A DNA stretch of 37,245 nt from Bacteroidota bacterium (GTDB lineage: Bacteria > Bacteroidota > Bacteroidia > UKL13-3): contig CANHDN010000010.1 of assembly GCA_947459415.1 (NCBI GenBank), forward strand, positions 1 to 37,245, given 5' to 3'. Position 1 is the first letter of the stretch. Each line of letters opens with the position of its first letter. The translations under genes and the position numbers were made by a program. Shown piece after piece: positions 18,147 through 37,245 of this stretch. Under the pieces are notes generated by a model. That model saw nothing but the letters and a program-made list of their open reading frames with translations. It ran no database searches and was not told where the DNA came from.

Positions 18147-18169
18147 CCCAATTCAAATAAAATTAATTC

Positions 18170-20706: not shown

Positions 20707-21789
20707 ATGCAACATCAATCAATACACAAAGAACAATTGTTAGCTTTCATTAAAGATTATACCGCATTTTTACTTGGAAAGTATAGAATTATTGTTGCTT
20801 TTGTTTTATTAGGATTTTTCATTGGGCTCAGCTATGCAATTGTTAAAAAACCTACCTATGAAGCCAAATTAGTTTTTATGCTAAATGATGCTAAGTCTTC
20901 AAATATGGGTGGATTAAGTGCCTTGGCAGGTCAGTTAGGTTTGGGTCAAAGTTCAGGATTAAATGTTTCCGAAGACAGGGTGTTTTATTTAGCCTACACC
21001 AAAAGAATCATAGGTGGCGCCTTATTGTCAAAAAATGATCAAGGAGAGACCTTAGGAGATAGACTGATTTACTTGCGGAATTTGAAAAGTTCCTGGGAGA
21101 ATGATACGGTTTTAAGTAAATTTCAATCTTTTCATTCAAAGGAGATTAACCAAATGAGTAAGCTTGAAAATATGGCTATGGATCAGCTTATTCAGATTGT
21201 ATTACTTTCAAAAAAATATGTGGTTGATTCTTATAAAAAGAAAGTATCTAGTTTGGTTGGTTCACAAAGTAGTGGGATGATGTTTGTCAGTTTTGAATAC
21301 ACGGATGAGCTATTTTCAAAAGACTTTGTTAAATCTATCTATAATGAATTATCTAATTTTTATTCGATGGTTGCTATTAAATCACTTCAGAATAATTTTG
21401 ACCTCATTAGTGCCAGAGAAGATTCATTAAAGCTTGCTTTACAAGAAATAGAAGATCAAATGGCATATACCATAGATAATAACTTTCAGGTAAATAAATT
21501 TATTGGCAAAGTTGGAGAAAACAGGTTAAGAAGAAAACTTGAGATTCTCAATTTATTTTATGCAGAAGTAATTAAAAATAAAGAAGTCGCTAAATTTAAT
21601 TTGGACCAAGAGCGTCCTGTTTTTCAGGTGGTTGATGAGCCTATGTTGCCCTTAGAGGCTAAGTTTAAATCTAAGGTTGTATATAGTTTATTAGCAGGAT
21701 TTGGGTTTTTATTTTTGGGAATTGGCCTGCTCAGTTTATTTTATATCAAAAGCCTTTGGCCATTAAATAAGAAATCTTTCGACCGATAA
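20707..21789 (+). CDS. Wzz-like chain-length determinant / polysaccharide co-polymerase
   Basis: A 360-residue protein with the two-helix topology of polysaccharide co-polymerases: one helix at about residues 28-46 followed by KKPTYEAKLVFML, a large, partly coiled-coil periplasmic region, and a second helix near the C-terminus preceded by the proline-containing segment VVDEPMLPLEAKFKSK. It is a class 1-type form: it stops after the second helix and has no fused Walker-motif tyrosine kinase. It would set glycan chain length together with the Wzy-like protein encoded 8 bases downstream. A purine-rich GAAGGGGGAT precedes the ATG, an unusually strong ribosome-binding site for this phylum. Confidence 0.87.
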   Translation: MQHQSIHKEQLLAFIKDYTAFLLGKYRIIVAFVLLGFFIGLSYAIVKKPTYEAKLVFMLNDAKSSNMGGLSALAGQLGLGQSSGLNVSEDRVFYLAYTKRIIGGALLSKNDQGETLGDRLIYLRNLKSSWENDTVLSKFQSFHSKEINQMSKLENMAMDQLIQIVLLSKKYVVDSYKKKVSSLVGSQSSGMMFVSFEYTDELFSKDFVKSIYNELSNFYSMVAIKSLQNNFDLISAREDSLKLALQEIEDQMAYTIDNNFQVNKFIGKVGENRLRRKLEILNLFYAEVIKNKEVAKFNLDQERPVFQVVDEPMLPLEAKFKSKVVYSLLAGFGFLFLGIGLLSLFYIKSLWPLNKKSFDR

Positions 21790-21797
21790 TATCCAAT

Positions 21798-23039: not shown

Positions 23040-24390
23040 ATTAAAAACAATATTCAGCTCTGATAATTTTGGTCGAAGTCATTTAATGTTTAAAAATGTT
23101 TTTCTTTCATTTTTTACAAAAGGGGGCATAGCTTTTATCGGAATACTGATGGTTCCAATGATGCTTCAATTGCTCAGCAAGGAGGAATTCGGAATTTGGC
23201 AGACTTTATCTTCTATCTTAGCTTGGTTGTATTTCTTAGATATTGGACTAAGTAATGGGTTTAAAAATTTATTTACACAAGCCATAGCCCAAAATGAAAT
23301 GGATAAAGCCAATAAGTTTTTGAGCACAACTTATGCTATTATAATTCTTTCTAGTTTGTTCTTTATCTTAGTATTTGAATTAATAAATCCTTTTTTAAAC
23401 TGGGGCCAAATTTTAAATTTTGAATTTCATAGCATACCAGATTTTGCTATTATTATTCAATTTGTTTTTATATCCTTTGCCTTTAAATTAGCATTGTCTA
23501 TCCTAAATACTGCCTTAGCCTCCAATCAGCAATATTCTGCAAGTACGGTTATAGAGTTGTTAACTAATATCGTAGTTATTTGTTTTTTGTTTTTTTTAAT
23601 TAGGCTTCAATTGCCTTCATTATTATTGGTTGCCATAACCAGCAGTATCACTCCAATATTTTTATTACTTCTAGCTAGTTTTTATTATTTTAATTTTGGT
23701 TCACTAAAAGCATTTGCGCCGGCATGGCGAAATATTGATTTTAGCCTTACTCGGAGTTTATTCGGTAAAGGAATTCAGTTTTTTTTCATTCAAATTGCCT
23801 TTGTACTCATGTTTACTGCTAATAATATTATAGTTGCTCAATTGTTTGGTCCAGAGCAGGTAGCGGAATTGAGTGTGGTTAATAAGTATTATTCAATACC
23901 CATGATGGCCTTTATTATTGTTCTAGGACCGTTCTGGGCTGGTTTTACAGAGGCGTATTATAAAAATGACATTGCTTGGGTCCAAATAACTATTAAGAGG
24001 TTGTTGTTGATTTGGTTTTTATTTTTGGTGTTAATTTGGACCATGTATTGGTTTTTTGAACCTATTTGCATGTATTGGTTAGGTGCTAATTTTAAAGCAT
24101 CATCTCGCTTAGTTTTTTATTATGCGATCTTTGCCAGTGTAGTTACATTCAATAATATTTTCTCCTATTTTTTAAATGGTATTGGTAAAATTAGGGTCCA
24201 ATTGATTGGGGCTGTTTTTTTAGGTATTATTAGTATTCCTTTGTCTATATATTTTTGCAAGCTTCCTTATTTTGAAGCTGATGGAGTGCTTGTGGCAAAT
24301 ATTGTGTGTTTGTCACTAGGTTTATTTTTGGGGCCAATTCAGTATTATTTGATCATTTCTAAGAAAGCTAAAGGTGTTTGGTTAAAATAA
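23014..24390 (+). CDS. Wzx-like polysaccharide flippase
   Basis: A 458-residue protein with about twelve membrane helices of the MOP/PST flippase superfamily, which moves undecaprenyl-diphosphate-linked repeat units across the inner membrane. The N-terminal part (FTKGGIAFIGILMVPMMLQL, KEEFGIWQTLSSILAW, DIGLSNGFKNLF) is the conserved start of this group. Several starts are possible: 23014, or the ATG at 23029 (MYRKLKTIF), which is preceded at good distance by GGAG and gives a smaller overlap with the polymerase gene. The longer form is listed. Together with the preceding genes it defines a Wzx/Wzy-dependent pathway. Confidence 0.87.
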   Translation: MEMMSMYRKLKTIFSSDNFGRSHLMFKNVFLSFFTKGGIAFIGILMVPMMLQLLSKEEFGIWQTLSSILAWLYFLDIGLSNGFKNLFTQAIAQNEMDKANKFLSTTYAIIILSSLFFILVFELINPFLNWGQILNFEFHSIPDFAIIIQFVFISFAFKLALSILNTALASNQQYSASTVIELLTNIVVICFLFFLIRLQLPSLLLVAITSSITPIFLLLLASFYYFNFGSLKAFAPAWRNIDFSLTRSLFGKGIQFFFIQIAFVLMFTANNIIVAQLFGPEQVAELSVVNKYYSIPMMAFIIVLGPFWAGFTEAYYKNDIAWVQITIKRLLLIWFLFLVLIWTMYWFFEPICMYWLGANFKASSRLVFYYAIFASVVTFNNIFSYFLNGIGKIRVQLIGAVFLGIISIPLSIYFCKLPYFEADGVLVANIVCLSLGLFLGPIQYYLIISKKAKGVWLK

Positions 24391-24441
24391 TGAAAAGTAT
24401 TAAGTTGCCAATTGTTTAAAATTCTTTTAAAATTTTAATGA

Positions 24442-25536
24442 ATGGAAATTAGCATCCCAATTTACCAACCTTCCTTGTCTGGAAACGAAAAAAAATATGT
24501 GAATGAGTGCATAGATTCAACATGGATTTCCTCTAAAGGCAGTTTTATAAGTAAGTTTGAACATGAATTTTCTAGTTATATTGGCTGTAAATTTGGTTCG
24601 GCAGTCTCCAATGGTACAGTGGCCATACATTTGGCTATGTTGGCACTTGGAATTGGAGAAGGTGATGAGGTCATAGTTCCTACTCTCACTTATATTGCTT
24701 CGGTTAATGCAATTGCTTATGTAGGAGCAACGCCGGTATTTGTAGACAGCCTCCCCAATACTTGGCAAATGGATCCGGCAGATGTTGCCAAAAAAATTAC
24801 CGCTAAAACAAAAGCGATTTTGGCTGTTCATTTATATGGTCACCCATGCGATATGGATGCATTATCTCAATTATGTAATGCGCATCATTTGTTTTTGATA
24901 GAAGATTGTGCAGAGGCAATTGGTTCAACTTATAAAAACAGGAAAGTTGGGTCATTTGGAGATATATCAACTTTTAGTTTTTTTGGTAACAAAACCATAA
25001 CTACGGGAGAAGGGGGTATGGTATTATCTAACAATGAAACCTTGCATGAGAGAATCAATCATTTTAAAGGACAAGGATTAGCAAAACATAGGCAGTACTG
25101 GCATGATGTAATTGGGTATAATTACCGCATGACTAATATCTGTGCAGCAATTGGTCTAGCCCAGTTTGAGCAAGTTCAGGTTTTTATAGATAAAAAACTT
25201 CAGGTAGTTGCATGGTATAAAAAATACCTAGACAATTCTTTTTTGACTTTTCATGAACAAGCTCATGAGTCTTTGCATACTTACTGGATGTTTTCTGTTT
25301 TAGTTCCAGATTCTAAACTAAGAGATCCATTGCGCAGCCACCTGGCAGAAGCCGGAATTGAAACAAGGCCATTGTTTTATCCTGTGCATACGATGCCCAT
25401 GTATAACAAGAATTTTCAACATATTCCAGTGGCTGAAGACCTAGGTTGGAGAGGGATTAACTTACCAAGTTTTCCCGGGTTGACTGAAGACCAAGTGAAA
25501 TTTATTTGTGATACCATTTTAAAATTTAAACCATGA
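24442..25536 (+). CDS. DegT/DnrJ/EryC1/StrS sugar aminotransferase (perosamine-synthase-like)
   Basis: A 364-residue PLP-dependent aminotransferase that adds an amino group to a nucleotide-linked keto sugar. The Schiff-base lysine is Lys184 in FFGNKTITTGEGG, and the PLP-contacting Asp155 lies in IEDCAEAIGS. SNGTVAIHLAMLALGIGEGDEVIVP (split across residues 56-80) is the typical cofactor-phosphate region. The SFFGNKTITTGEGG form resembles GDP-perosamine synthase (RfbE/Per) and PglE-like enzymes. A lysine rather than the histidine of ColD-type dehydratases is present, so aminotransfer is expected. It overlaps the next acetyltransferase gene by 4 bases, indicating an N-acetylated 4-amino sugar as joint product. 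No dehydratase to make the keto substrate is in the window. Confidence 0.9.
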   Translation: MEISIPIYQPSLSGNEKKYVNECIDSTWISSKGSFISKFEHEFSSYIGCKFGSAVSNGTVAIHLAMLALGIGEGDEVIVPTLTYIASVNAIAYVGATPVFVDSLPNTWQMDPADVAKKITAKTKAILAVHLYGHPCDMDALSQLCNAHHLFLIEDCAEAIGSTYKNRKVGSFGDISTFSFFGNKTITTGEGGMVLSNNETLHERINHFKGQGLAKHRQYWHDVIGYNYRMTNICAAIGLAQFEQVQVFIDKKLQVVAWYKKYLDNSFLTFHEQAHESLHTYWMFSVLVPDSKLRDPLRSHLAEAGIETRPLFYPVHTMPMYNKNFQHIPVAEDLGWRGINLPSFPGLTEDQVKFICDTILKFKP

Positions 25537-26177
25537 AGGTAATATTTGGTTCTGCAGGGCAAGCCAAAGAAGTGGATTGGTTTTTGTATGAAATTTCTAA
25601 GCAAAAAGGTGCTCATCATCGCTTAGATTATTACATAGGAAATGAGCCTAATGATTCAGGTATTCATGGGGTTCCCATCATTACAGAAAGCGATTTTTTA
25701 CCCATGATTAAAAATTCAGTTAGCGTTGAAGCTTATATTGCCATTGGGAGTCCGGTAATTAGAAGAAAAATCTGGGATAAGTTTAAGGACTTTTCACCTA
25801 TCCATTATCCTGTTTTAATTCATCCTAGTGTATTTTATGATGAGAGACAAGATAGAGTTAAGCTTGGAACGGGTAGTATTCTGTGCGCTGGCACTGTGTT
25901 AACAACAGATGTCACTATTGGTGATTTTGTTCACGTTAATATAAATTCAACCATTGCACATGATACGCAAATTGGTAATTTCTGTACCATTTCTCCAGGA
26001 TGCAATATTTCTGGAAATGTAATATTGGGAGAAAATGTCTTTCTTGGCACAAATGCTAAAATTATTGAGCGAATAAGTATTTGCAATGATGTAATTATTG
26101 GCGCAGGTAGTTTAGTCACTAAATCTATTACAGAACCTGGAACTTATGTGGGTATACCCGCCAAAAAAATTAAGTAA
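25533..26177 (+). CDS. NeuD/PglD-family sugar O/N-acetyltransferase
   Basis: A 214-residue acyltransferase with two parts: an N-terminal nucleotide-sugar-binding fold (MKVIFGSAGQAKEV) and a C-terminal left-handed beta-helix made of hexapeptide repeats (LGTGSILCAGTVLTTDVTIG, GNFCTISPGCNISGNV, GENVFLGTNAKI). His143 in STIAHDTQIG corresponds to the catalytic base of PglD. The end, GTYVGIPAKKIK, is the usual closing motif. It probably acetylates the amino sugar made by the aminotransferase encoded immediately before it (ATGA overlap), giving an N-acetyl derivative such as N-acetylperosamine or a bacillosamine-type sugar; which one cannot be decided here. Its stop codon shares one base with the next start. 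Confidence 0.87.
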   Translation: MKVIFGSAGQAKEVDWFLYEISKQKGAHHRLDYYIGNEPNDSGIHGVPIITESDFLPMIKNSVSVEAYIAIGSPVIRRKIWDKFKDFSPIHYPVLIHPSVFYDERQDRVKLGTGSILCAGTVLTTDVTIGDFVHVNINSTIAHDTQIGNFCTISPGCNISGNVILGENVFLGTNAKIIERISICNDVIIGAGSLVTKSITEPGTYVGIPAKKIK

Positions 26178-27403
26178 TGCGTGTAGGTATAAATGCTGAT
26201 ATTTTTATTGAATGGGCAGGTGGGATAGACTTTTTAAGAATTGTTCTAAAAGGTCTGAACCACATAAACAAACATACACCTATTGAGGTTTTTGTGTTTA
26301 TTCCTGAGAAAAAAATATCCTATGCTAACTTGTTTAAGGTATTTTTAAAGCGAGTTATTAATATTATTCTTGGGTATCAAAAATATAGTTTACAATTACC
26401 TAAACCTTTGGATGTGGAAGGGGCAAAGCTGATTTTAGGAAAAGATTGTAAGGTGCAATTTGTTACTTATGATTTTAGTTTGAAGAATTTAGAAAGAGAG
26501 GCATTAAGTCGTGGTGTTGAGGTATTACTTCCATGTTTTCATTCTTTGGGTGAAGGGTTTAAAGTATCTTGGGTTGGTTATTTATATGATTTTCAGCATA
26601 AATATTACCCTCATTTCTTCTCACCTAAAGAAATACAATTGAGAGACACCTTGTTTTGCAATATGCAAGATGAGGCAAGGGTGATCATGGTGAACGCAAA
26701 TGCAGTTAAAAATGATGCTGAAAAGTTTTTTCCAGGTAAACATGCGCAGATTATTTCCCTTCCATTTTGTCCATTATATAAAGATGAAAGCATCGATTTT
26801 GATGATGTGCTTCTGCCAGATAATTTACCAAAAAAATATTTTCTGATTTCTAATCAATTTTGGCAACACAAAGATCATAAAACTGCCATAGAAGCGCTAT
26901 CTATGTTTCACAAGGAATATGGGTTAAGTGATGTTCATTTAATTTGTACAGGTGAAATGCATGATTATCGAGCACCCGGCTATGTTGATACAATACAGGA
27001 ACTAGTTAGGAAATTATCTCTTGAAGATAAGGTTCATTTCTTAGGCTATATCAGTAAAGCACTACAATTACGAATTATGAAAGGCGCAATAAGTTTGGTT
27101 CAACCTACACTATTTGAAGGTGGTCCGGGGGGAGGAGCTGTATATGAAGCTTTAGCCATTGGGGTAAATGTTGTATTAAGTGATATTCCTGTAAATCAGG
27201 AAATAAAACGTGCAAATTGTTTGTTCTTTGAGGCAGGAAATCCAAGTAGTTTGGCTAAGAAATTGTTTGAAGTTATTGGCTTAGAGAAATTGAGTCTGTG
27301 GCAGCTTAAGCAGCAACAAGAGACAGATGTAAATGAGTTTTCTCAGGCATTGCATGCCATTATTCAAACGTCAATTGCTGGCAATAAGAAAGGTCTTAAT
27401 TAA
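26177..27403 (+). CDS. Glycosyltransferase family 4 (GT-B)
   Basis: A 408-residue GT-B glycosyltransferase. The C-terminal half shows FLISNQFWQHKDHKTAIEAL, VHFLGYISKALQLRIM and the donor-binding Ex7E segment EGGPGGGAVYEALAIG followed by VVLSDIPVNQEI, all typical of retaining GT4 enzymes that use NDP-sugars. The N-terminal acceptor domain is less conserved, with GINADIFIEWAGGIDFLRI at the start. It begins on the last base of the acetyltransferase stop (TAATG), so it may use the amino sugar made by the two preceding enzymes, although that link is inference from gene order. Confidence 0.87.
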   Translation: MRVGINADIFIEWAGGIDFLRIVLKGLNHINKHTPIEVFVFIPEKKISYANLFKVFLKRVINIILGYQKYSLQLPKPLDVEGAKLILGKDCKVQFVTYDFSLKNLEREALSRGVEVLLPCFHSLGEGFKVSWVGYLYDFQHKYYPHFFSPKEIQLRDTLFCNMQDEARVIMVNANAVKNDAEKFFPGKHAQIISLPFCPLYKDESIDFDDVLLPDNLPKKYFLISNQFWQHKDHKTAIEALSMFHKEYGLSDVHLICTGEMHDYRAPGYVDTIQELVRKLSLEDKVHFLGYISKALQLRIMKGAISLVQPTLFEGGPGGGAVYEALAIGVNVVLSDIPVNQEIKRANCLFFEAGNPSSLAKKLFEVIGLEKLSLWQLKQQQETDVNEFSQALHAIIQTSIAGNKKGLN

Positions 27404-27430
27404 TTTTACAGGTAATAGGTTTGTTTTAAG

Positions 27431-28261
27431 ATGATAAAAAATACACCATCATATCCCAAGGTAACAGTAGTATCTGTTTCATATAATTCTGCTCCTGTTG
27501 CTGCTGCTACTATTGATAGTGTATTAAATCAAGATTACCCTAATTTAGAGTATATTATCATTGATAATGTATCTACAGATGGGACCTTAGAAATGATTAG
27601 AAAATATGGGAGTAAAATAAATTTGCTCGTTAGTGAGAAAGATGCTGGGCCATATGATGCAATGAATAAAGGGGTGAAGTTGGCAAAGGGTGAGTGGATT
27701 TGGTTTATGAATATGGGTGATAGATTTCCAGATAACCCAAATGTTTTGAAAGAGATTTTTTCATTTAAGTTGCTTGGAGAAGTTAGAGTAATATACGGCA
27801 ACACCTTCGTAGAGGCAGAATCTATCAATTATTTAAAAAGATTTAACCAAAAAATTTCTAGAAATTTAAAGTTTGGAATTTTACATTTAAATCATCAATC
27901 AATGATTTGTAAGGTGAATTGTTTCGATGAGATAGGTTTTTTTGAGACCGATGAATTTAAAATAAAATCAGATGCCTTTTGGCTTACAAAATTATATCAT
28001 GCTTTTGGCTCAAGCTGTTTTTATTATGTAAATACTGTTTTTGCACATTACAATGAAACCGGACTTTCTTCTAATCCATTAAATTTTAAAAAAATGCATG
28101 AGGAGGATGTGCGAATTTTGAAATTAATAGGAACCAACATTCAGTTGCTATTATTGCAATTTAACTGGTTTTTTAAGCGAATTAGAATTCAATTATTTTT
28201 TGTTTTAAAAAAACAATCATATTGGTTCAATATATATAGAAACTTAAAATACCGAAAATAA
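27431..28261 (+). CDS. Glycosyltransferase family 2, WcaE-like
   Basis: A 276-residue GT-A protein. The N-terminal nucleotide-sugar fold is clear: TVVSVSYNSAPVAAATIDSVL, LEYIIIDNVSTDGT, and SEKDAGPYDAMNKGV, with the acidic metal-site segment FMNMGDRFPD. The AGPYDAMNKG plus NxGD combination is typical of the WcaE/WcaA-like group found in exopolysaccharide clusters. No membrane helix is evident. A 27-base gap separates it from the GT4 gene. It would transfer one sugar on the cytoplasmic face; donor unknown. Confidence 0.87.
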   Translation: MIKNTPSYPKVTVVSVSYNSAPVAAATIDSVLNQDYPNLEYIIIDNVSTDGTLEMIRKYGSKINLLVSEKDAGPYDAMNKGVKLAKGEWIWFMNMGDRFPDNPNVLKEIFSFKLLGEVRVIYGNTFVEAESINYLKRFNQKISRNLKFGILHLNHQSMICKVNCFDEIGFFETDEFKIKSDAFWLTKLYHAFGSSCFYYVNTVFAHYNETGLSSNPLNFKKMHEEDVRILKLIGTNIQLLLLQFNWFFKRIRIQLFFVLKKQSYWFNIYRNLKYRK

Positions 28262-28280
28262 ATAGAAGGATTTAGTCGCC

Positions 28281-29231
28281 ATGTTTTCAATCGTAATTCC
28301 ATTATATAATAAAGCAAATCATATCGAAGATGCGATTAGGTCTTTGATGAGACAATCTTTTGATAGGTATGAGATTATTGTGGTTGATAATAATTCTAGT
28401 GATGATGGCTTGGCTATTGTTCAAAAAATGGATGAGCCTAGAATTGTTGTTGTTGAAGAGAAAAATCAGGGCGTTTCATATGCCAGAAATAGGGGTGTGA
28501 GTTTGGCTAAGTATCATTGGATTTGTTTTTTAGATGCAGATGATACCTGGGAAAAAGACCAATTGTTAAATTTTAATCATGCTATTAGTAAGCATACAGA
28601 AATACTTGTTTTTGCAAATAATTATAAAATAGTTGATGCTAAAGGCAGAGAGAGAAAATGTGAAAGAAATAATTCGCATTATGATCATCAGATTTATAAT
28701 AAACCATGCTTTTTTCATGACTACAATCATGGAGATATGCCTGTAAATATGAATTCTGTATGCATGCATAAGGATGTTTTTCAGAAAATTGGTGGTTTTA
28801 GCAATGAGTTAAAAAACGGGGAGGACACCTTGTTTTGGATGAAAATATTTTTGAGAAATAAAATATATTTTACAGATTATGTTGGGTCAACTTATCATTT
28901 AAAGGCCTCAAATAGGTCCAATAATTTAGAGGTATTTTCTGTTGAACTTCCTGTAATTAAGGAGTTTGTTAAGGTATTTAAATCTGAACCTATTTTTAAT
29001 AATTATCAAAAAGATTTTCATGCTTTTATTGCAAAGCACTTATTTGTAAGTGTAATGGCAAACATAAAATTAGGAAGATTAGCTTTAGCAAAATCGTTTT
29101 TTTATGATAAACGTGTTTATGCATATCCACAGAAAACAACCCTTTTTGTGGCGCTTTTATTGAGTTTTACGCCCATTTTCATTAGTAAATCCTTATTGCA
29201 ATTTTTGCTTAAGAAGGGCTTTGTGAGCTAA
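28281..29231 (+). CDS. Glycosyltransferase family 2
   Basis: A 316-residue GT-A enzyme. MFSIVIPLYNKANHIEDAI opens the fold, YEIIVVDNNSSDDG provides the donor-binding acidic residues, and FLDADDTWEKDQL contains the DxD-type metal site (DADD). NGEDTLFWMKIF near residue 180 is the usual ED catalytic-base motif. A hydrophobic stretch near the C-terminus (TLFVALLLSFTPIFISKSLL) may associate it with the membrane. It is preceded by a GAAGGA-like ribosome-binding sequence and is the last gene of the first co-directional block of the glycan locus. Confidence 0.88.
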   Translation: MFSIVIPLYNKANHIEDAIRSLMRQSFDRYEIIVVDNNSSDDGLAIVQKMDEPRIVVVEEKNQGVSYARNRGVSLAKYHWICFLDADDTWEKDQLLNFNHAISKHTEILVFANNYKIVDAKGRERKCERNNSHYDHQIYNKPCFFHDYNHGDMPVNMNSVCMHKDVFQKIGGFSNELKNGEDTLFWMKIFLRNKIYFTDYVGSTYHLKASNRSNNLEVFSVELPVIKEFVKVFKSEPIFNNYQKDFHAFIAKHLFVSVMANIKLGRLALAKSFFYDKRVYAYPQKTTLFVALLLSFTPIFISKSLLQFLLKKGFVS

Positions 29232-29252
29232 TTAACCTTTAGTTGCCTTGCA

Positions 29253-30176
29253 TTAAATGCTTTCTAATTGATTTGTCTGTGTATTGAGCACAGGCATGCC
29301 CTTTAACAATGCTAATCTATTGCTGCCAGCCAGGTAATTTAGTTGGCCATTTTTATCCCTACTTTCTCTGAATTTTGATCTAATATATCCACTTTGACAA
29401 GTATGAATTTTTAAATCCTTTTCCTTTCCTTGTTTTACAAAATAGGCATTGTTTCCGGCAGAATTACTGCCAATAAAGTAGTATCCTTTTTCATCTGCTA
29501 AATCGCATAAGGAGCGTAATGATGAGCCGCCATAAAGCTGACTATAATGTGCTTTGTTTCTTTCAAAATTGGCTTGATAAGGAATGGTGTAAGGTTTTTC
29601 TGAACCAAAAATACTGTTATATTCCATGATAACTAGGGTAGGAGATATAATTTGTATGGCCTTCCAAATATGGTAATCGTTTCCATCAATATCTATATGT
29701 AACAGTCCAATTTTATTCGCAAATTCATTTTCTTGAATAATTTGATTGATGTTTTCTTTTGTAATAAAATGACAGGCCGCTGTTAATTCATGTTTCCAAT
29801 ATAAATCACTTTTCTTAATTGCATTTATATGATCTATTGATCCATCAATCACAAAGCCTTTCCAGTTTCTACTGATTAATAGGTAGCGTGTGTTTGATTC
29901 TTCATAATTCTCCACGCCAAATTCTAAAAAACTTTCATGTTCAAAATCTAAATATTGGGTCAAAAAATCTATGATGCCATCATCTCCCCATTGCGAAAAA
30001 ACGCTAAACTCTGCTACAGCTAAATTTTTTAAAATAGTATCTTTATTAGAAAAATTATGATGAGATAAAAGTTTTGCTTGGAGTATTTTAGTTTCGTCCA
30101 TTTTTTTTGCCAACTCTTTGCTTCTATAAGCTAATTGGTGTAGGTTTTTAAGAATTTGAATGATTTTTTCTAGCAT
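29253..30176 (-). CDS. FkbM-like / SAM-methyltransferase-fold protein, antisense within glycan locus
   Basis: A 307-residue protein on the strand opposite its neighbours. The centre resembles a SAM-dependent methyltransferase of the FkbM kind: ESFLEFGVENYEESNTRYLL at 81-100 (glycine-containing first motif), WKGFVIDGS at 105-113, and LLHIDIDGNDYHIW at 158-171. The preceding SQWGDDGIIDFL is also common in such proteins. The first ~40 residues are helical and possibly coiled-coil. Relatives are frequent in polysaccharide clusters and mostly uncharacterised; O-methylation of a sugar is a reasonable but unproven role. It converges on the GT2 gene (21-base gap) and diverges from the GT4 gene, so it is transcribed alone, interrupting the locus. 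Confidence 0.6.
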   Translation of the reverse strand: MLEKIIQILKNLHQLAYRSKELAKKMDETKILQAKLLSHHNFSNKDTILKNLAVAEFSVFSQWGDDGIIDFLTQYLDFEHESFLEFGVENYEESNTRYLLISRNWKGFVIDGSIDHINAIKKSDLYWKHELTAACHFITKENINQIIQENEFANKIGLLHIDIDGNDYHIWKAIQIISPTLVIMEYNSIFGSEKPYTIPYQANFERNKAHYSQLYGGSSLRSLCDLADEKGYYFIGSNSAGNNAYFVKQGKEKDLKIHTCQSGYIRSKFRESRDKNGQLNYLAGSNRLALLKGMPVLNTQTNQLESI

Positions 30177-30285
30177 AAATATTAAATATTGTATGTTTAT
30201 GTATATTCAATTGGTAAAAATAAGAGAATTACTTTAATTTGTTCTTACTATTTAGTGCCGGTAAACTGGTTGATTGATAAAATAA

Positions 30286-31359
30286 ATGATTAAGGTCTTA
30301 ATTATAAATTCTACACTTGAGCGTTCTGGGCTTTCAAATGTTATCTATTATTTGGCAAAATTTATAAATAAAGATCTATTTGAGATTCATATTTTAACCT
30401 TATCGCCTGAGCCTAAAAACTCTATGTGGACAGAATTTGCAGCATTAGGTGTTGTGTTGCATACTTTGAGGGCTACCAGACTACAATCTTTGTTACATAT
30501 TGGTGCAAAATTAAAACAAGAAGTGAAGCGAATAGGTCCAGACATGATACATACCCATAGTTTTAGAGGTAGTTTTTTAGCAGGAAAATTTTTATCAAAT
30601 TATAAAAGAGTGGTTACCGTTCATGGTGATTTGCATAATAATCATTCAGTAATTTATGGAAAATTTTTAGGCACCTATTTTGCAAATAGAGAATTAAGCA
30701 GTTTTAAACGTGCTAATGCAAGAACAGTTGTTTCTTATTATTTGAAAGATATGTATCATCATTTGGGTGAAATGAATGTAATTCCAAATGCGGTTCCTAC
30801 TGATTTGTTTTACAAGGCTAAATCTTCTGAGGTAATCCTCTTAAGAGAACAAATGGGAATTTCTGTTCATGCAAGGGTGTTTGTAATTGCAGGTGATTTA
30901 ATACCACGTAAAGATCCTGTTATGGTTATCAGGGCATTTGTAAATGCAAAGCTACCCGATGCCTTATTAATTGTATTAGGAAAAGGTCCTCTTTTGGATG
31001 AATGTAAACAGATTGCTAACCCACAGGTCAGATTTTTGGGCCAGGTTTCAAATGTGGCAGAGTATTATAAAATGGCAGACTTCTTAATTTCTGCATCAGT
31101 TTCTGAAGGTCAAGGCTTGTCTGTATTAGAAGCTGCCATGTGTGGGTTAACTTGTTTGGTTAGCAATTTGCCGCCACATCAAGAGATTTTTTTCAATTCT
31201 TCACATCAGGCCAGATTTTTCAGCCCTCGAAATGAATTTGAGTTAAGCAAATTAATCAGGGAGGAGCCAGTGGTAAATAATAAATTGGGAGCTTATTTTT
31301 CTATTACAGATATGGTAAATCAATATCAAAATTGCTATTCAAGTTTAGTTACTGAATAG
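30286..31359 (+). CDS. Glycosyltransferase family 4 (GT-B)
   Basis: A 357-residue GT4 enzyme. The acceptor domain begins IKVLIINSTLERSGLSNVIYYLA, with HTHSFRGSFLAGKF near residue 88 and the linker VIPNAVPTDLFY near 160. The donor domain has FVIAGDLIPRKDPVMVI, VRFLGQVSNVAEYYKMADFL and the Ex7E segment EGQGLSVLEAAMCG, then LVSNLPPHQEI. The divergent 109-base gap to the antisense gene should hold its promoter, but no good TAnnTTTG match is visible, only an approximate TTTAATTTG. It starts the second co-directional block of the locus. Confidence 0.9.
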   Translation: MIKVLIINSTLERSGLSNVIYYLAKFINKDLFEIHILTLSPEPKNSMWTEFAALGVVLHTLRATRLQSLLHIGAKLKQEVKRIGPDMIHTHSFRGSFLAGKFLSNYKRVVTVHGDLHNNHSVIYGKFLGTYFANRELSSFKRANARTVVSYYLKDMYHHLGEMNVIPNAVPTDLFYKAKSSEVILLREQMGISVHARVFVIAGDLIPRKDPVMVIRAFVNAKLPDALLIVLGKGPLLDECKQIANPQVRFLGQVSNVAEYYKMADFLISASVSEGQGLSVLEAAMCGLTCLVSNLPPHQEIFFNSSHQARFFSPRNEFELSKLIREEPVVNNKLGAYFSITDMVNQYQNCYSSLVTE

Positions 31360-31405
31360 TATCAAATCACTTTTTTTTGTATTATCGTATTTTACAAATT
31401 AACTC

Positions 31406-31972
31406 ATGAGCAACGAAGATTATTTTAATTACCTAAAAACTAGAAGTAATAAAGCACTTTTATACAGAACTAAAATAGTTTATCCTTATTTAAGTAAACA
31501 TTTAACAGGTAAAGTGCTAGATATTGGTTGTGGTATTGGAGATTATTTGAGCGTAAATAAAAATAGCATTGGAATAGATATCAATTCATTCAATGTTAAT
31601 TATTGTAAACAACTAGGTTTTGAAGCCCATATCATTGAAAATAATATTTTCCCTATCAGTAATAATTCCTGCGATGCGGCAATTTTAGATAATGTGCTCG
31701 AACATCTAGTTGAACCAGAAATAACCCTTCAAGAGGCTAAAAGAGTATTAAAAGTAGGTGGTAAATTGCTTATTGGTGTTCCGGGTAAGAAGGGGTATAC
31801 CATGGATCCAGATCACAAGAAGTTTTATGACGAGGCAGAAATGGATCATTTACTTAGTCTGAATGGGTTTAAAACTGTTAAGTTTTTATATACACCTACT
31901 TTCTTTAAATCAGATTTTATAAGTAAGAAGTTGGCTTCCTATTGTGTATATGGCGTATTTGAAAAGCTTTAA
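31406..31972 (+). CDS. Class I SAM-dependent methyltransferase
   Basis: A compact 188-residue methyltransferase. Motif I is VLDIGCGIGDYL (about residues 37-48), the acidic end of strand 2 is GIDIN, motif II-like AILDNVLEHLVEPE follows, and RVLKVGGKLLIGVPG is motif III. The size and the LDNVLEHL segment match Methyltransf_11-type enzymes common in glycan loci, which methylate sugar hydroxyls, sugar carboxylates or chain ends. Chain-end methylation can stop polymerisation, but nothing here shows this. The 46-base gap upstream includes a T8 tract without a hairpin. Confidence 0.85.
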   Translation: MSNEDYFNYLKTRSNKALLYRTKIVYPYLSKHLTGKVLDIGCGIGDYLSVNKNSIGIDINSFNVNYCKQLGFEAHIIENNIFPISNNSCDAAILDNVLEHLVEPEITLQEAKRVLKVGGKLLIGVPGKKGYTMDPDHKKFYDEAEMDHLLSLNGFKTVKFLYTPTFFKSDFISKKLASYCVYGVFEKL

Positions 31973-31986
31973 AAAATAAAGAGATT

Positions 31987-32811
31987 TTGATAGGGTCCCT
32001 TGCAAACATCAGTTTTTCTTTAGTTGTGTACAATCACAGTTATGAGCTAATTAGCCAATTGGTTCAGACCGCATTAAACTTTAAGCAAACCCATACTTTC
32101 TTTATTATAGATAATTCGCCCAAAGATAAGCTAAGTCTCAGTTTACCCGTGCATGATAAGTTGGTTTATGTTTTTAATGGGGATAATTTGGGTTATGGCA
32201 AGGCTCATAATTTGGCCATCAAAAAAATTTTAAATCAAACCCAATACCACCTTGTATTAAATCCAGATATTATTTTTGAGGTCTCTGCATTAAATGAAAT
32301 GCTTGAATTTTTGGATTCTCACCCAAACATTGGTTTGTTGATGCCAAAAGTGCTATATGGAAATGGCGAAATTCAATATTTATGTAAGCTTTTTCCTACC
32401 CCATTTGATTTAATAATGCGAAGGTTCATTCCTAATTTTTTGAAAAATAAACTGCAAGCTAGGCTAAACCAATATGAGTTGAAGCACAAGAATTATGGAG
32501 CTCAAATGGAGGTTCCCAATCTCTCGGGTTGCTTCATGTTGCTGAGGGTAGAGGTGTTAAAAATTGTAGGTTTATTTGATGAACAGTTTTTTATGTATTT
32601 AGAAGATACAGATTTGAGTAGGCGTATTAATATGCAATTTCAAACGATGTATTTCCCTGAAGTTTCAATTATTCATCAATATGAGAAAGGCTCATACAAA
32701 AATTTAAAATTGCTAAAGTATCATATTGTTTCTGCCTTTAGGTATTTTAATAAATATGGTTGGTTTTTTGATACGGTAAGAACCACCATTAATAAGCGTT
32801 TGGTATCATGA
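31987..32811 (+). CDS. Glycosyltransferase family 2, rhamnosyltransferase-like
   Basis: A 274-residue GT-A enzyme. ISFSLVVYNHSYELI opens the fold, NLGYGKAHNLAI and LVLNPDIIF (NPD in the metal-site position) follow, then LSGCFMLLRVEVLKIVGLFDEQFFMYLEDTDLSRRI, split over residues ~178-214, a pattern typical of WbbL/RfbF-like rhamnosyltransferases. No ATG occurs near the N-terminus; the start is taken as TTG at 31987, preceded by the purine-rich AAATAAAGAG. It ends in an ATGA overlap with the next glycosyltransferase. Rhamnosyl transfer is only suggested by resemblance. Confidence 0.85.
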   Translation: MIGSLANISFSLVVYNHSYELISQLVQTALNFKQTHTFFIIDNSPKDKLSLSLPVHDKLVYVFNGDNLGYGKAHNLAIKKILNQTQYHLVLNPDIIFEVSALNEMLEFLDSHPNIGLLMPKVLYGNGEIQYLCKLFPTPFDLIMRRFIPNFLKNKLQARLNQYELKHKNYGAQMEVPNLSGCFMLLRVEVLKIVGLFDEQFFMYLEDTDLSRRINMQFQTMYFPEVSIIHQYEKGSYKNLKLLKYHIVSAFRYFNKYGWFFDTVRTTINKRLVS

Positions 32812-33584
32812 GGGTTTCTGTAATTACAGCGGTTTTTTCTAATAAGGCTTTTGTTACAGATGCCATAGAGTCTGTATTGACCCAAAAAAATGTTGACATA
32901 GAATATATTATCGTAGATGGTGGTTCTAAAGATGGCACGGTAGAAATTGTAAAATCATATGGGTCTCGCATTCATAAGTTTATTTCTGAGCCAGATGAAG
33001 GGGTTTACTTTGCCTTAAACAAAGGCATTGAAATGGCTACCGGAGATATTATTGCTTTGTTACATAGTGATGATTTTTATGCACATCCCTTTGTATTGTC
33101 GCAGGTGGTAGAGGCATTTGAAAAGACAAATTGTGATGCCGTTTATTCTAATTTGTATTATGTGAAAAGTAATAATATCAATAAGATTATTAGGCTGTGG
33201 GATTCTGGTGATTATAAAGAAAATAGTTTTTTTGAAGGTTGGATGCCCCCACATCCTGCCTTTTTTGCAAAGCGAAGTGTATATCAAAACTTTGGTTCAT
33301 TTAATACTACCTTAAAAAGTGCTGCCGACTATGAACTGATGTTACGACTCATCTTTAAAAATAAAATTAGCTTACAATACCTTCCTAAATTTTTTGTAAA
33401 AATGCGTACCGGTGGAGCCAGTAATCGATCTTTACTCAATAGGATAAAGGCAAACATGGAAGATAGAAAAGCATGGCAAATTAATGGACTGCAACCAAAG
33501 TGGTACACGCTTGTGTTGAAGCCTTTGATAAAATTATTTCAGTACCGTTTTTTTAGTTATTTTCGACCCGATTCTATTCATTAA
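32808..33584 (+). CDS. Glycosyltransferase family 2, WcaE-like
   Basis: A 258-residue GT-A enzyme with VSVITAVFSNKAFVTDAIESVL, IEYIIVDGGSKDGTVEIV, SEPDEGVYFALNKGIEMATG and the metal-site LLHSDDFY. The EPDEGVYFALNKG motif places it with the WcaE-like group, as for the gene at 27431. PHPAFFAKRSVY and SAADYELMLRL near residue 170 are the usual acceptor-side and catalytic motifs. It overlaps the preceding gene by 4 bases and is followed 3 bases later by the RidA gene. Confidence 0.88.
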   Translation: MRVSVITAVFSNKAFVTDAIESVLTQKNVDIEYIIVDGGSKDGTVEIVKSYGSRIHKFISEPDEGVYFALNKGIEMATGDIIALLHSDDFYAHPFVLSQVVEAFEKTNCDAVYSNLYYVKSNNINKIIRLWDSGDYKENSFFEGWMPPHPAFFAKRSVYQNFGSFNTTLKSAADYELMLRLIFKNKISLQYLPKFFVKMRTGGASNRSLLNRIKANMEDRKAWQINGLQPKWYTLVLKPLIKLFQYRFFSYFRPDSIH

Positions 33585-33587
33585 ATT

Positions 33588-33998
33588 ATGAGCATACATT
33601 CAGAAAAAGCACCAGAACCAGTTGGGCATTATCCGCATGCACGTCGTGTGGGAAATTTATTATTTTTATCGGGTGTAGGTCCGCGTGAAAAAGGTACCAA
33701 AGTAATACCTGGTGTTACCTTAGATGAAGCAGGTAATATGGTGAGTTACGATATAGAAAAACAAGTTCGTTCTGTTTTTAATAATATTAAAAATATTTTG
33801 GAAGATGCAGGAAGTAGCTGGGGAAATATGGTAGATGTTACGGTGTTTTTAACCAATATGAAAGACGATTTTCCAACCTATAATAAACTTTGGGCAGAAT
33901 ATTTTGCCATTGACCCTCCTTGCAGAACTACCCTAGAAATAAACTGCTTGCCAACACCGATAGCAATTGAACTAAAGGTTATTGCTACAATAGACTAA
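33588..33998 (+). CDS. RidA/YjgF-family protein, 2-aminomuconate-deaminase-like
   Basis: A 136-residue member of the Rid superfamily, trimeric enzymes that hydrolyse reactive enamines/imines. GNLLFLSGVGPREKG (22-36) and VRSVFNNIKNILEDAGSSWGNMVDVTVFL (60-88) are conserved, and Arg113 in PCRTTLEI matches the substrate-carboxylate-binding arginine of RidA. The opening SEKAPEPVGHYPHARRVGN and PGV segment resemble bacterial 2-aminomuconate deaminase, an enzyme of tryptophan/kynurenine or aromatic amine breakdown; that sub-assignment is from recollection of the family. The gene is only 3 bases after a glycosyltransferase and 9 bases before an acyltransferase, so it appears to be co-transcribed with the glycan locus although no catabolic partner is present. 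Confidence 0.82.
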   Translation: MSIHSEKAPEPVGHYPHARRVGNLLFLSGVGPREKGTKVIPGVTLDEAGNMVSYDIEKQVRSVFNNIKNILEDAGSSWGNMVDVTVFLTNMKDDFPTYNKLWAEYFAIDPPCRTTLEINCLPTPIAIELKVIATID

Positions 33999-34007
33999 GC
34001 AAGGTTT

Positions 34008-35021
34008 ATGGGTAAAAACAACTTCGATTTTTTAAGATTTGCTTTTGCATTGATTGTTGTTTTTTCGCATGTCATTGATTTGTCACTGGCACCTAATTTG
34101 CAATTTTTAAAACCTTTTTTTGATACTCATATTTCAGTAACTGGTTTTTTTGTGATCAGTGGCTGTTTAATATCAGCCTCTTATATGCGTTCTTCTTCTA
34201 TCTCCTCTTATTTTGAGAAAAGAGCCAGGCGTTTGTTGCCAGCCTATTTTTTAGTCATTATATTGTCTGTGTTGGTACTTTCCTTTTTTTCTCAGCTGAA
34301 TATAACTGATTATTTTTTGAATACGCAACTTTATACCTACTTAGTTTCAAACCTGCTTTTCGTGAATTTTATTCAGCCTTGTTTGCCTGGCGTTTTTATA
34401 GATAATGCGTATTGTGCAGTAAATGGAGCATTATGGACTATCAAAGTAGAAGTTGGATTTTATTTAGTATTACCTTTGATTTTATTGGGCTTAAAAAGGA
34501 TTTCTAACAAGTTCTATTATTTAGTAGGTTTATACCTGTTTGGCTTGATATACCAATATACCTTGCCTCAATTGATACCTGTTTGGCCAGCAAAGGCTTC
34601 ATTATTGAATACCTTGCAGCATCAGTTACCTGGTTATTTAACATATTTTACAGCCGGAATTATTTTGTTTCAGTACTTAGATGTTATAAAAAAAAACCGA
34701 GTTGCATGGGGCTTGCTTGCCTGCTTGGTATTTGTAGTAGAGTATAGGGCTGGTCTAGAAATTTTGAGGCCAATGGCTATGGCCATCTTAATTGCCTGTT
34801 TTGCATTTGGTTTTTCTTTTTTAAATAATTTTGGCAAATATGGGGATGTTTCTTATGGAATTTATATCCTTCATTTTCCGTTCATACAATGTTTGGTGAG
34901 CTTGGGCTTATTTGAGAGATACAATCCATTTTTACTCTTATTTGGAATTGTATTGATGGTTTTAGTGGCAGGCTATTTATCATGGCAATTGGTTGAAAGT
35001 AGGTTTATTCACAGAAAGTAA
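34008..35021 (+). CDS. Acyltransferase family 3 membrane protein (OafA/YrhL-like)
   Basis: A 337-residue integral membrane protein with about ten helices. The start, NFDFLRFAFALIVVFSHVIDLS, contains the conserved R and H of the Acyltransferase_3 family, and FFVISGCLISASYMRSSSISSYFEKRARRLLPAYF, in residues ~45-82, and ALWTIKVEVGFYLVLPLIL are further family hallmarks; SYGIYILHFPFIQ is the usual near-C-terminal motif. Family members O-acetylate or otherwise acylate sugars of O-antigens, capsules and exopolysaccharides. There is no SGNH domain. As the last membrane gene of the locus it likely decorates the glycan. Confidence 0.88.
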   Translation: MGKNNFDFLRFAFALIVVFSHVIDLSLAPNLQFLKPFFDTHISVTGFFVISGCLISASYMRSSSISSYFEKRARRLLPAYFLVIILSVLVLSFFSQLNITDYFLNTQLYTYLVSNLLFVNFIQPCLPGVFIDNAYCAVNGALWTIKVEVGFYLVLPLILLGLKRISNKFYYLVGLYLFGLIYQYTLPQLIPVWPAKASLLNTLQHQLPGYLTYFTAGIILFQYLDVIKKNRVAWGLLACLVFVVEYRAGLEILRPMAMAILIACFAFGFSFLNNFGKYGDVSYGIYILHFPFIQCLVSLGLFERYNPFLLLFGIVLMVLVAGYLSWQLVESRFIHRK

Positions 35022-35047: not shown

Positions 35048-36271
35048 TTGCATTATATTGCAGAAAAAAATAATTTGACATTCGACGATTTTCAATTTGA
35101 CTATGACCTCATGGATGGCTTAGATGCCATGGGGTTTAATAAGCCCACACCTATTCAAGAATTGGCTATACCAGTTATTTTAGCACATAAAGATTTAATT
35201 GCTTGTGCTCAGACTGGAACTGGTAAAACAGCAGCCTATGTGCTCCCCATTATAGACAAAATAATTAGCTCAAATCATAGCCATTTAAATACATTAATTT
35301 TGGCTCCAACCAGAGAACTTGCTGTGCAAATAGATCAGCAAGTTCAAGGATTTAGTTATTATGTTCCTGTGAGTTCTATTGCCATTTATGGGGGTGGAGA
35401 TGGTGCCATTTGGGATCAGCAAAAAAAAGCACTCAAGGCTGGAGCAGATATTATTATTGCCACACCAGGTAGGTTAATATCTCAGTTAGCTTCTGGAGAT
35501 ATTAAGCTAGATAAGCTAGAACACTTTATACTAGATGAGGCAGATAGAATGCTAGACATGGGGTTCTATGATGATATTTTAAAGATCATTTCTTATTTGC
35601 CAAAGAATAGACAAACTATTTTGTTTTCGGCTACCATGCCTCCTAAAATTAGAACCCTTGCTTCTAAAATTTTAGACAAGCCCGAAGAAATCAGCATTGC
35701 AATTTCTAAACCTGCAGAAGGTATTTTACAACAGGCTTACCTTACCTATGATGCCCAAAAAATTCCTTTGCTAAGCGAAATTTTTAAAGCCAATTCCTAC
35801 CAGAGTGTCATCATATTTGCAGGTACAAAAGAACGCGTGAAAAGTCTTCAATTTGAGTTAAAACGAATTGGTTTAAAAGCCAAATCTTTCCATTCAGACC
35901 TTGAACAAAAAGAACGCGAAGATTTGATGAATGAGTTTAGGAGTAGAAAGCTGCAAGTGCTCATTGGAACAGATATTTTATCTCGTGGCATAGATGTAGA
36001 CGGAATAGATTTGGTAGTGAATTTTGATGTGCCGCCAGATCCTGAAGATTATGTGCACCGCATCGGTAGAACTGCCCGCGCTGAATCTAAAGGTACTGCA
36101 ATCACTTTCATCAATGAAAAAGATCAAAGGCGCTTTCATGCTATTGAAGCGCTGATAGAAAAGGAAGTGCCCAAACTTTCTTTGCCTATTTTTCTGGGTG
36201 GTGCACCCGTTTATGCACCAAATACTCGCAGGTCTGAACCTAAACAAAGGTTTAAGCCAAGACGGAAGTAG
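35048..36271 (+). CDS. DEAD-box ATP-dependent RNA helicase, RhlE-like
   Basis: A DEAD-box helicase of 407 residues with all motifs: Q motif (GFNKPTPIQ), I AQTGTGKT at 54-61, Ia PTREL, Ib TPGRL, II DEAD at 163-166, III SAT at 194-196, V GTDILSRGIDV and VI HRIGRTAR at 337-344. A short basic tail (RRSEPKQRFKPRRK) supports RNA binding. RhlE-like helicases assist rRNA processing, ribosome assembly and cold growth. No ATG precedes the conserved region; the start is TTG at 35048 or, to give MTFDDFQFDYDLMDGL as in many relatives, TTG at 35075. It follows the acyltransferase by 26 bases but is functionally unrelated. Confidence 0.93.
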   Translation: MHYIAEKNNLTFDDFQFDYDLMDGLDAMGFNKPTPIQELAIPVILAHKDLIACAQTGTGKTAAYVLPIIDKIISSNHSHLNTLILAPTRELAVQIDQQVQGFSYYVPVSSIAIYGGGDGAIWDQQKKALKAGADIIIATPGRLISQLASGDIKLDKLEHFILDEADRMLDMGFYDDILKIISYLPKNRQTILFSATMPPKIRTLASKILDKPEEISIAISKPAEGILQQAYLTYDAQKIPLLSEIFKANSYQSVIIFAGTKERVKSLQFELKRIGLKAKSFHSDLEQKEREDLMNEFRSRKLQVLIGTDILSRGIDVDGIDLVVNFDVPPDPEDYVHRIGRTARAESKGTAITFINEKDQRRFHAIEALIEKEVPKLSLPIFLGGAPVYAPNTRRSEPKQRFKPRRK

Positions 36272-36355
36272 GCATTAGTTTTGAGTTATGAGGCATGAGT
36301 TTTGAGTTATGAGGTATGAGTTAAGAGGTATGAGTTAAGAGTTAAGAGTTAAGAG
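36272..36355 (+). repeat. Heptanucleotide tandem repeat, 12 units (NNNNGAG)
   Basis: Starting right after the helicase stop codon, the sequence divides into 7-base units: GCATTAG, TTTTGAG, TTATGAG, GCATGAG, TTTTGAG, TTATGAG, GTATGAG, TTAAGAG, GTATGAG, TTAAGAG, TTAAGAG, TTAAGAG. All but the first end in GAG, and a decayed unit (TTGGAAG, 36356-36362) follows. The first part shows a 21-base higher-order period, the last part is a homogeneous TTAAGAG triplet. It fills most of the 132-base gap before the aldo/keto reductase gene. Confidence 0.9.
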
Positions 36356-36403
36356 TTGGAAGTGGAGTTAAAACATTATGTTAGCGTTTTTAGTTGAATA
36401 CAT

Positions 36404-37245
36404 ATGAAATATCAATTATTCGGTCATACAGGATTGCGCGTTTCTGAACTTTGTTTAGGAACCATGGGTTTTGGAACAGAGAACGGTTGGGGTGCAGATT
36501 TTGAAGGCAGCAAGGCTGTTTTTGAGGCATATTCCAATGCTGGAGGTAATTTTTTAGATACTGCCAATATATACACACAAGGCACTTCAGAGAAATTTTT
36601 AGGAGAATTTATTGGTTCAGACCGCGACCATTACGTAGTGGCTACCAAATATTCGTTGAAAGATAGAAATGGCGACCCAAACTATGCGGGTAATCATAGA
36701 AAGAATATGATGCGTTCTGTTCAAGAAAGTTTACAACGCTTGAAAACAGATTACATAGATGTGTTGTGGCTCCATATCTGGGACTTTACCACCCATCCCG
36801 AAGAAGTTTTGTTGGCCATGAATGATTTAATTTCTCGTGGATTGGTTCATTATATTGGTATTAGCGATACGCCAGCATGGCGCGTTGCACAGGCAAATAC
36901 CATTGCAGAATTGCGTGGTTGGAACCGTTTTGCTGGACTACAAGTTGAATATAGTTTAATTAACAGAACGGCTGAGCGTGATTTGCTGCCAGTTGCCAAG
37001 GCTTTGAACTTAACGCTTACACCTTGGGCCCCATTGGCTGGAGGTGCTTTAAGTGGAAAATACCTGAGAGGTGAACAAGGAAGATTGCCGCAAAATTCTA
37101 AAAGGTTAAATGAACGCAGTACTTTAATTGCCCAAAAAGTGATAGCGGTTGCCGAAGCAATTGAATGCACACCTGCTCAAGTTGCCCTAAAATGGACCAT
37201 GCAAAGGAACCAATCAGTGGTTCCTATTGTTGGAGCCACAAAAGC
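36404..37245 (+). CDS. Aldo/keto reductase, 3'-truncated by window edge
   Basis: The frame is open from ATG at 36404 to the end of the window, giving 280 complete codons of a protein that usually has 310-330. It is an NADPH-dependent oxidoreductase of the AKR superfamily with a TIM-barrel fold. The catalytic tetrad is visible: Asp52 and Tyr57 in FLDTANIY, Lys82 in ATKY and His124 in LWLHIWD. GLRVSELCLGTMGFG at the start and TPWAPLAGGALSGKY near residue 218 are typical of the YajO/Tas-like (AKR11/12-like) group. The last visible residues, VVPIVGATKA, belong to the cofactor phosphate-binding region, so little is missing. The upstream region is the heptamer repeat. Confidence 0.93.
   Translation, partial: MKYQLFGHTGLRVSELCLGTMGFGTENGWGADFEGSKAVFEAYSNAGGNFLDTANIYTQGTSEKFLGEFIGSDRDHYVVATKYSLKDRNGDPNYAGNHRKNMMRSVQESLQRLKTDYIDVLWLHIWDFTTHPEEVLLAMNDLISRGLVHYIGISDTPAWRVAQANTIAELRGWNRFAGLQVEYSLINRTAERDLLPVAKALNLTLTPWAPLAGGALSGKYLRGEQGRLPQNSKRLNERSTLIAQKVIAVAEAIECTPAQVALKWTMQRNQSVVPIVGATK

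Follow-up and report, generated by a model that had tools for sequence, protein, structure and literature searches.

The heptamer array behind the helicase gene is one locus of a dispersed, intergenic repeat class with a period of 7 bases, and the arrays of this class that are built from GANKTA-type words have a set polarity near gene edges. The array lies in a window of 37,245 nucleotides, the whole stretch of DNA that was analyzed, from a genome designated G000 (C-numbers denote contigs). We consider that the array is probably a self-expanding repeat, copied between loci and tolerated beside genes. The repeat belongs to an already described kind that is scattered between genes in many bacteria, and some of its quantitative features are new. 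Taken on its own, the window locus is an ordinary outcome.

The array between the helicase and reductase genes

Read on the forward strand, the array consists, in order, of the units GCATTAG, TTTTGAG, TTATGAG, GCATGAG, TTTTGAG, TTATGAG, GTATGAG, TTAAGAG, GTATGAG, TTAAGAG, TTAAGAG, and TTAAGAG, and it starts on the base directly after the stop codon of the helicase gene (Table 1). The original prediction had described twelve 7-base units, eleven of them ending in GAG, that occupy the helicase-reductase gap, and this is correct base for base. TRF reported positions 36277-36357 with a period of 7, 11.6 copies, and a score of 92, the runner-up in the window scoring 42, and GAGNNNNGAGNNNNGAG occurs nine times in the window, always inside the array, with 0.01 occurrences expected. 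The self-identity of the array was 0.77, 0.80, 0.86, and 0.75 at lags 7, 14, 21, and 28, and 0.19 to 0.36 at the remaining lags within 1 to 27. Since identity peaks at lag 21, the 21-base higher-order period that had been noticed at the left is real. The purine (G/A) bias suggested for one strand was also found, with 27 G and 2 C on the forward strand. No unit of the array contains GGG, and on the reverse strand the units read as TAACTCW or variants of it, not as TAACTGA. A second, inverted array was not seen by eye in 36356-36403, and the window locus is a single arm.

Table 1. Coordinates of the array, its parts, and the flanking genes in the window
Feature	Position	Strand	Remark
DEAD-box helicase gene (DEAD, Helicase_C)	35048..36271	+	Upstream of the array
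Helicase stop codon TAG	36269..36271	+	In register with the unit GAG
Array of 12 x 7 bases	36272..36355	+	The purine strand is the + strand, which is the helicase coding strand
Units 2-7 of the array			21-base higher-order repeat
Units 10-12 of the array			Pure TTAAGAG
Left half	36276..36322	+	94% over 47 bp to G000:C188:2850-2896
Right half	36300..36357	+	81% to the TTAAGAA/TTAAGAG array G000:C117:6997-7053
Spacer from array to reductase start	36356..36403	+	48 bp, no sigma-70-like promoter found
Aldo/keto reductase gene (PF00248)	36404..37245	+	Runs to the contig end

A purely local expansion from one end, as had been proposed, is not supported, given that the two halves resemble arrays on two other contigs. 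The left half and the C188 array have the 21-base higher-order repeat in common, and the right half is similar to the C117 array. Therefore, the window array may be a mosaic of array types found elsewhere in the genome, to judge from these resemblances. Local growth of the pure TTAAGAG run may have taken place at the right end.

Unit changes had also been expected to alter the spacing upstream of the reductase gene. In such a scenario, the reductase would be switched or tuned by a local minisatellite in the manner of phase variation; the array does sit in the gap, where units could be gained or lost, and the uspA genes of Moraxella, tuned by a repeat between promoter and start as quoted in the consulted passages of PMC4679880, provide a precedent. 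We regard this as very unlikely, however, because the array abuts the helicase stop and ends well short of the reductase gene, like arrays occur at many other loci, and the gap measures anything from 60 to 171 bp in six syntenic species, in all of which both genes stay. A scan of 36150-36500 for sigma-70-like promoters was negative as well, which is weak evidence, as the sigma-70 consensus used may not fit this organism. A specific role of the array in reductase control is thus not supported.

In the same interval, the one terminator-like site (36440-36462) is inside the reductase gene, as is a single Rfam match that scored far below the gathering score; Rfam gave no match in the array. The RNA fold of 36250-36410 did not go beyond shuffles (z of -0.45), and the unusual RNA structure that had been suggested is accordingly not predicted for the single array. 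When a plasmid collection was queried with 35048-37245, 5 records were retrieved, with every match within the helicase gene. As a single arm between co-directional genes, the window copy probably has little specific function. By eye, the ORF translations of window positions 18170-35021 resemble a polysaccharide export and glycosyltransferase cluster.

Heptamer arrays in the genome, the genus, and beyond

A genome-wide search of G000 (2.56 Mb, 204 contigs) with TGAGTTATGAGTTATGAG, an 18-base TTATGAG probe with up to 3 mismatches allowed, gave 46 matches in 15 places, compared with 1 match for the reversed-pattern control; 4 of the 15 places (C6:30579, C7, C176, and C180) rest on one 3-mismatch match each. 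Hence, arrays with intergenic placement are present at many loci of one genome, and the expectation of similar arrays elsewhere, also beside stop codons, was borne out. The opposite picture, with identical copy number in all relatives and no other arrays, does not hold, because arrays recur elsewhere and their length, and even their unit word, differ between related species. Another word was observed in the same genome at G000:C15:17731-17793 (L098:7731-7793), a 63-bp ACTCTAG/ACTCTGG heptamer array.

The nearest relatives of G000 that were found are 80-83% identical. With up to 2 mismatches, GAGTTANGAGTTANGAGTTANGAG was matched in 23 of the 60 relatives searched. Three GAGTTAN units followed by GAG were matched in 12 of the 19 genus genomes, with 1 to 157 matches per genome, and a GAGTTA match was absent from the other 7; the exact GAGTTAW form was present in 18 of 395 genomes drawn across the phylum. 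A scan of named genomes yielded at least 115 stretches, and the 80 listed loci are mostly from Bacteroidota and cyanobacteria, with the rest from several phyla. The backwards control pattern gave 28 matches in G377 and 8 in G164; the genus of these two genomes thus carries an amplified GAG-type heptamer of a different word.

To describe the period of the arrays, we used 105 stretches from 7 genus genomes that were not chosen for arrays (1,851,078 bases, 158,635 of them outside long ORFs). Stretches picked for known arrays or synteny were excluded from the period and gap counts, and intergenic here means outside ORFs of at least 80 aa or at least 100 aa as given by a mechanical ORF caller, not by annotation. 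In a fixed-length test, 36 intergenic arrays had a period of 7, 2 a period of 8, and 4 a period of 14, with no intergenic arrays of periods 5, 6, 9 to 13, or 15 in the same stretches. Inside long ORFs, there were 5 arrays of period 7 and 2 of period 14. The stretches of G000 and G005 had no arrays; for the 11 stretches of G000, this zero is partly built in, because G000 contigs with TGAGTTATGAGTTATGAG matches had been set aside, and the array counts are identical without G000. A tandem unit of exactly 7 nt is thus found both at the window locus and in the genus.

Different loci have different unit words, and a single genome may hold several of them. When all stretches were counted, AATTACG accounted for 19 of 34 arrays in G004 and AAAACCC for 3 of 12 in G013; G015 had ACATCGT, ACCTCAT, and AACTCAT in 12, 10, and 9 of its 47 arrays, and G014 had ACTATGG and AATTACG in 3 each of 10. 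G015 also carries a dispersed intergenic repeat of 120-165 bp without 7-base periodicity, whose copies (L139:9451-9626, L138:1388-1552, L173:9523-10039, L128:5467-5884, and L131:12398-12639) are 80-96% identical. In G013 gaps (L192, L190, and L187), a short palindrome-like word, CGGTTTGAACCAAAA, recurs.

Placement and polarity at gene edges

Of the 40 array gaps in the 105 unselected stretches, 17 are convergent, 18 are co-directional, and 5 are divergent; 5 of the 40 are shorter than 40 bp. For comparison, the gaps that measure 40 bp or more number 87, 419, and 174 in the same order. The enrichment of arrays in convergent gaps over all other gaps was significant (p = 1e-6). The orientation of each array was taken from the purine majority of its unit, as G-skew was too coarse. 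Over all stretches, the purine strand came first and was followed by an inverted array in 20 of the 25 multi-array gaps, with the opposite order in 2 and one strand only in 3; the corresponding counts were 8, 2, and 1 of 11 in the unselected stretches and 12, 0, and 2 of 14 in the selected ones. Similarly, 17 of the 89 GAGTTA arrays listed from named stretches had an inverted partner within 250 bp in the purine-arm-first order, and none of the 89 had one in the opposite order. Three hand-picked inverted pairs fold as RNA hairpins of -29, -31, and -55 kcal/mol, values that carry no shuffle comparison. Hairpin effects are possible only where two arms face each other.

Very dense arrays were observed in L111 (G004:C1:735001-755000), at about 7300-19200 within 20 kb and mostly between co-directional ORFs of about 190 to 670 aa. 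Three L111 gaps also have in common a repeat of about 150 bp (85-90% identity) that contains TTGTTAGGC, which we take to recall the integron attC core.

REP, BIME, and REPIN elements form genome-wide populations of extragenic inverted pairs at gene ends. A non-autonomous mobile palindrome of the REP/REPIN type, spread by a RAYT (Y1) transposase, might be considered for the present arrays, as they are intergenic and dispersed, form inverted pairs, and prefer convergent gaps, and a Y1_Tnp match was found in 15 of 19 genus genomes. Nevertheless, arrays are matched in four genomes that lack a Y1_Tnp match, namely, G000, G014, G008, and G016 (completeness of 96, 98, 96, and 68), a single array is a direct tandem repeat, and the unit words vary by locus, which leaves this origin highly improbable. 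In contrast with REP, BIME, and REPIN elements, the arrays are tandem 7-mers with no fixed palindrome. A RAYT transposase as the driver was rejected, with no PF01797 match in G000 (96% complete).

The polarity of the arrays relative to genes was assessed in 119 arrays of at least 4 exact units that could be placed beside a gene in the 115 named stretches, which come from many taxa. The GAGTTA strand leads away from the nearest gene in 90 of these arrays. Split by distance to the gene, the outward counts are 73 of 85 up to 50 bp, 10 of 15 between 50 and 150 bp, and 7 of 19 farther out. As a control, 32 of 62 single GAGTTA words from gaps without arrays were outward. Within 50 bp, the arrays at the 80 listed loci were outward in 33 of 38 cases in Bacteroidota, 7 of 8 in cyanobacteria, and 7 of 11 in other phyla; counted by assembly over the same loci and distance, 39 of 49 were outward, 8 inward, and 2 tied. 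In the genus, again within 50 bp, GANKTA-type words were outward in 49 of 60 cases, and non-GANKTA words in 23 of 39, which is not significant. All words in the unselected genus stretches were outward in 31 of 47 cases, including L189, a G013 stretch whose array matches were known beforehand.

The start side and the stop side of genes gave different patterns. Near starts, words with ATG were outward in 20 cases and inward in 1, versus 1 and 4 for words without ATG; this split suggests that the start-side polarity reflects an avoidance of stray start codons. Near stops, outward arrays outnumbered inward ones by 32 to 5 for words with ATG and by 20 to 2 for words without it. ACTATGG words at stops go in the opposite direction, with 0 of 3 following the polarity.

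The polarity near stops would fit arrays that are selected transcription insulators. A Rho-type insulator was considered because C outnumbers G on the antisense strand of the array (27 C versus 2 G in 84 nt, a C-G of 25); among 24,774 windows of the contig (both strands, step of 3), only 4 without overlap with the array reach this excess. RNA entering a gene from outside would first read this C-containing, G-poor strand (CTCATAA...), load Rho, and thereby stop antisense read-through, and the polarity reported in the excerpted parts of Rehm et al. 2015 (PMC4692102) fits as well. The RhoTermPredict rut rule, in the portion of PMC6407284 that describes it, asks for C over G across 78 nt with regularly spaced C; however, the C spacing given there is 11-13 nt, and that of the array is 7. 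Furthermore, AATTACG words, with equal C and G, have the same polarity at stops (14 follow it versus 2), and C/G asymmetry is therefore not needed. We judge that the arrays are unlikely to act as such insulators.

Arrays might instead be seeded at the stop codons themselves, the stop and the next bases serving as a first imperfect unit that slippage amplifies, which would yield position and polarity without any copying between loci. Consistent with this, among 47 arrays whose start lies -12 to 30 bp from a stop, 42 are in sense orientation, and the window stop codon is in register with the units. In the 35 sense arrays starting at or after the stop, 62 of the 105 stop-codon bases were in register with the unit, compared with 54.1 of 105 for permuted stops, the observed value being reached in 62 of 5,000 permutations. 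Seeding at stops is still distinctly unlikely as the general origin, since the same words occur at dispersed loci, irregular stretches are identical between loci, and arrays near starts and inverted arms require another seed.

Word replacement in an orthologous gap and relation to known repeats

The helicase and reductase genes are adjacent in 6 of the 19 genus genomes (G000, G001, G014, G004, G006, and G015). In place of the TTATGAG/TTAAGAG words of G000, the gap contains TTATGAA/TTACGAA followed by GACYAAM in G001, AAGTTTT/AAGTGTT in G014, a short TTACGAA array in G004, and AAATTCT followed by GACCAAM in G006; the G015 gap has unrelated sequence without a lag-7 signal. In each of the other five gaps, the lag-7 signal was reached by 0 of 500 shuffles, and the signal at other lags of 4 to 12 by at least 36 of 500. 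A stricter detector found arrays in the gaps of G000, G001, G014, and G006 and not in that of G004, i.e., in 3 of the 5 gaps other than that of the window. One of the newer details of this analysis is that this gap holds a repeat in several related species although the words are not the same.

The gap arrays of G001, G014, and G006 were then queried against seven genomes, and all three match non-orthologous arrays better than the orthologous gap. Nineteen further matches to the G014 array lie in G014 itself, and no orthologous gap is matched; apart from the array's own locus, the highest scores are 69.8 bits in G014 and 67.1 bits in G013, and 33 irregular bp of it are 100% identical to another G014 locus. 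The best other match of the G006 array is on its own C316 (118 bits), compared with 80.6 bits for the orthologous gap of G001. Over 56 bp, the first block of the G001 array is 96% identical to C55 of the same genome (93.3 bits), and the best match overall lies in G006, at a compound locus that is not orthologous (99.6 bits). Two orthologous gaps match the G001 array (G006 with 80.6 bits and G004 with 63.5 bits), and some inheritance of words therefore remains; the G000 and G014 gaps are absent among the matches listed for it. The top score of the window array is in a distant species, G015 (105 bits), with 72.5 bits for its own C188. Taking the scores of G001 to G006, G014 to G013, and the window to G015, the pool of words would not be strictly per genome. 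An irregular 37-base heptamer element, ATGTCGAACATCGAATGCTGAATGTCGAATTTCGAAG, is identical at two G004 loci (L106:13656-13692 and L118:17329-17365). The stretch containing ATGTCGAACATCGAATGCTGAATGTCGAATTTCGAAG is matched dozens of times in G001 and G006 combined.

At the helicase gap, the array location persists while its word changes, which is most simply read as copying between loci. We infer this explanation of word replacement from one orthologous gap; neither a direct instance of copying nor machinery for it was found. Under the reading of a self-expanding, copied, and tolerated repeat that we prefer, arrays would grow and shrink by 7-base slippage or unequal exchange and copies of other arrays would seed and overwrite them; the word of a gap would thus be drawn from a pool of words and not inherited with the gap. 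Selection would purge harmful placements, inside genes and in divergent promoter regions, as well as the orientation in which ATG-containing words would introduce start codons directly ahead of a gene. Two arrays that face each other in a convergent gap would form hairpins, which may end or stabilize transcripts. A broader proposal is that the heptamer arrays of Bacteroidota, cyanobacteria, and others are one self-propagating population, in which a dedicated copying process with 7-nt steps rewrites arrays from a pool of words, locations persist across species, the purine strand is placed leaving the gene, and convergent genes end in heptamer hairpins; we hold this to be rather unlikely.

Heptameric repeats have been described in pieces, in Xanthomonas, Nostoc, and Beggiatoaceae, without an established function. 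A gap that keeps its array while the word changes makes it testable whether position, period, or word is important. In addition, the polarity, the ATG split near starts, and the behavior of AATTACG, which has no C/G asymmetry, are quantitative constraints on any mechanism, be it slippage, Rho, a hairpin terminator, or a mobile element. We found no description of GAGTTA arrays in Bacteroidota in the titles and abstract starts of a partly covered open-licence literature. A further newer detail is that repeats of this type tend to have a fixed orientation with respect to the closest gene.

The 7-nt unit has precedents. Long simple sequence repeats (Mrazek 2007) and the heptanucleotides of Calothrix are alike in that 7-nt units predominate, as cited in PMC4679880 and PMC4692102; the citing passages of these two papers quote neither gene-edge polarity nor unit turnover from them. 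In the consulted portion of MacGregor 2015 (PMC4679880), TAACTGA direct repeats are described in Beggiatoaceae, cyanobacteria, and five Bacteroidetes, and, like the present arrays, they are heptamer direct repeats, mostly intergenic and patchy in cyanobacteria and Bacteroidetes. On the opposite strand, the TTATGAG unit can be read as TAACTCA, which differs from TAACTGA at a single base. According to the same portion, TAACTGA lies mostly just upstream of start codons in the Beggiatoaceae genome and direct repeats of related heptamers are rare there, whereas the present arrays prefer stops and have many unit words.

The GGGAATC and GGGGA(C/T)T heptameric repeats of Xanthomonas and Nostoc, as presented in the available sections of Rehm et al. 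2015 (PMC4692102), have a period of 7, are intergenic and depleted between divergent genes, form inverted convergent pairs (70 in one genome and 75 in another), and have the coding strand near stops and the non-coding strand near starts. Two related species also carry them between the same genes, with variation in length and sequence. The period, the intergenic placement, the depletion between divergent genes, the inverted convergent pairs, the strand preference at gene edges, and the persistence between the same genes are all found in the arrays described here; the pairs and the polarity are features of the class, and the window locus has the stop-side polarity and one arm. Unlike the units of the present array, which have no G tract, the repeats in those sections are G-rich and quadruplex-forming, and they prefer gaps between aligned ORFs, while the present arrays are enriched in convergent gaps. 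Finally, in comparison with what those sections report, a different unit word here takes over from species to species within one genus, and a single genome carries several words.
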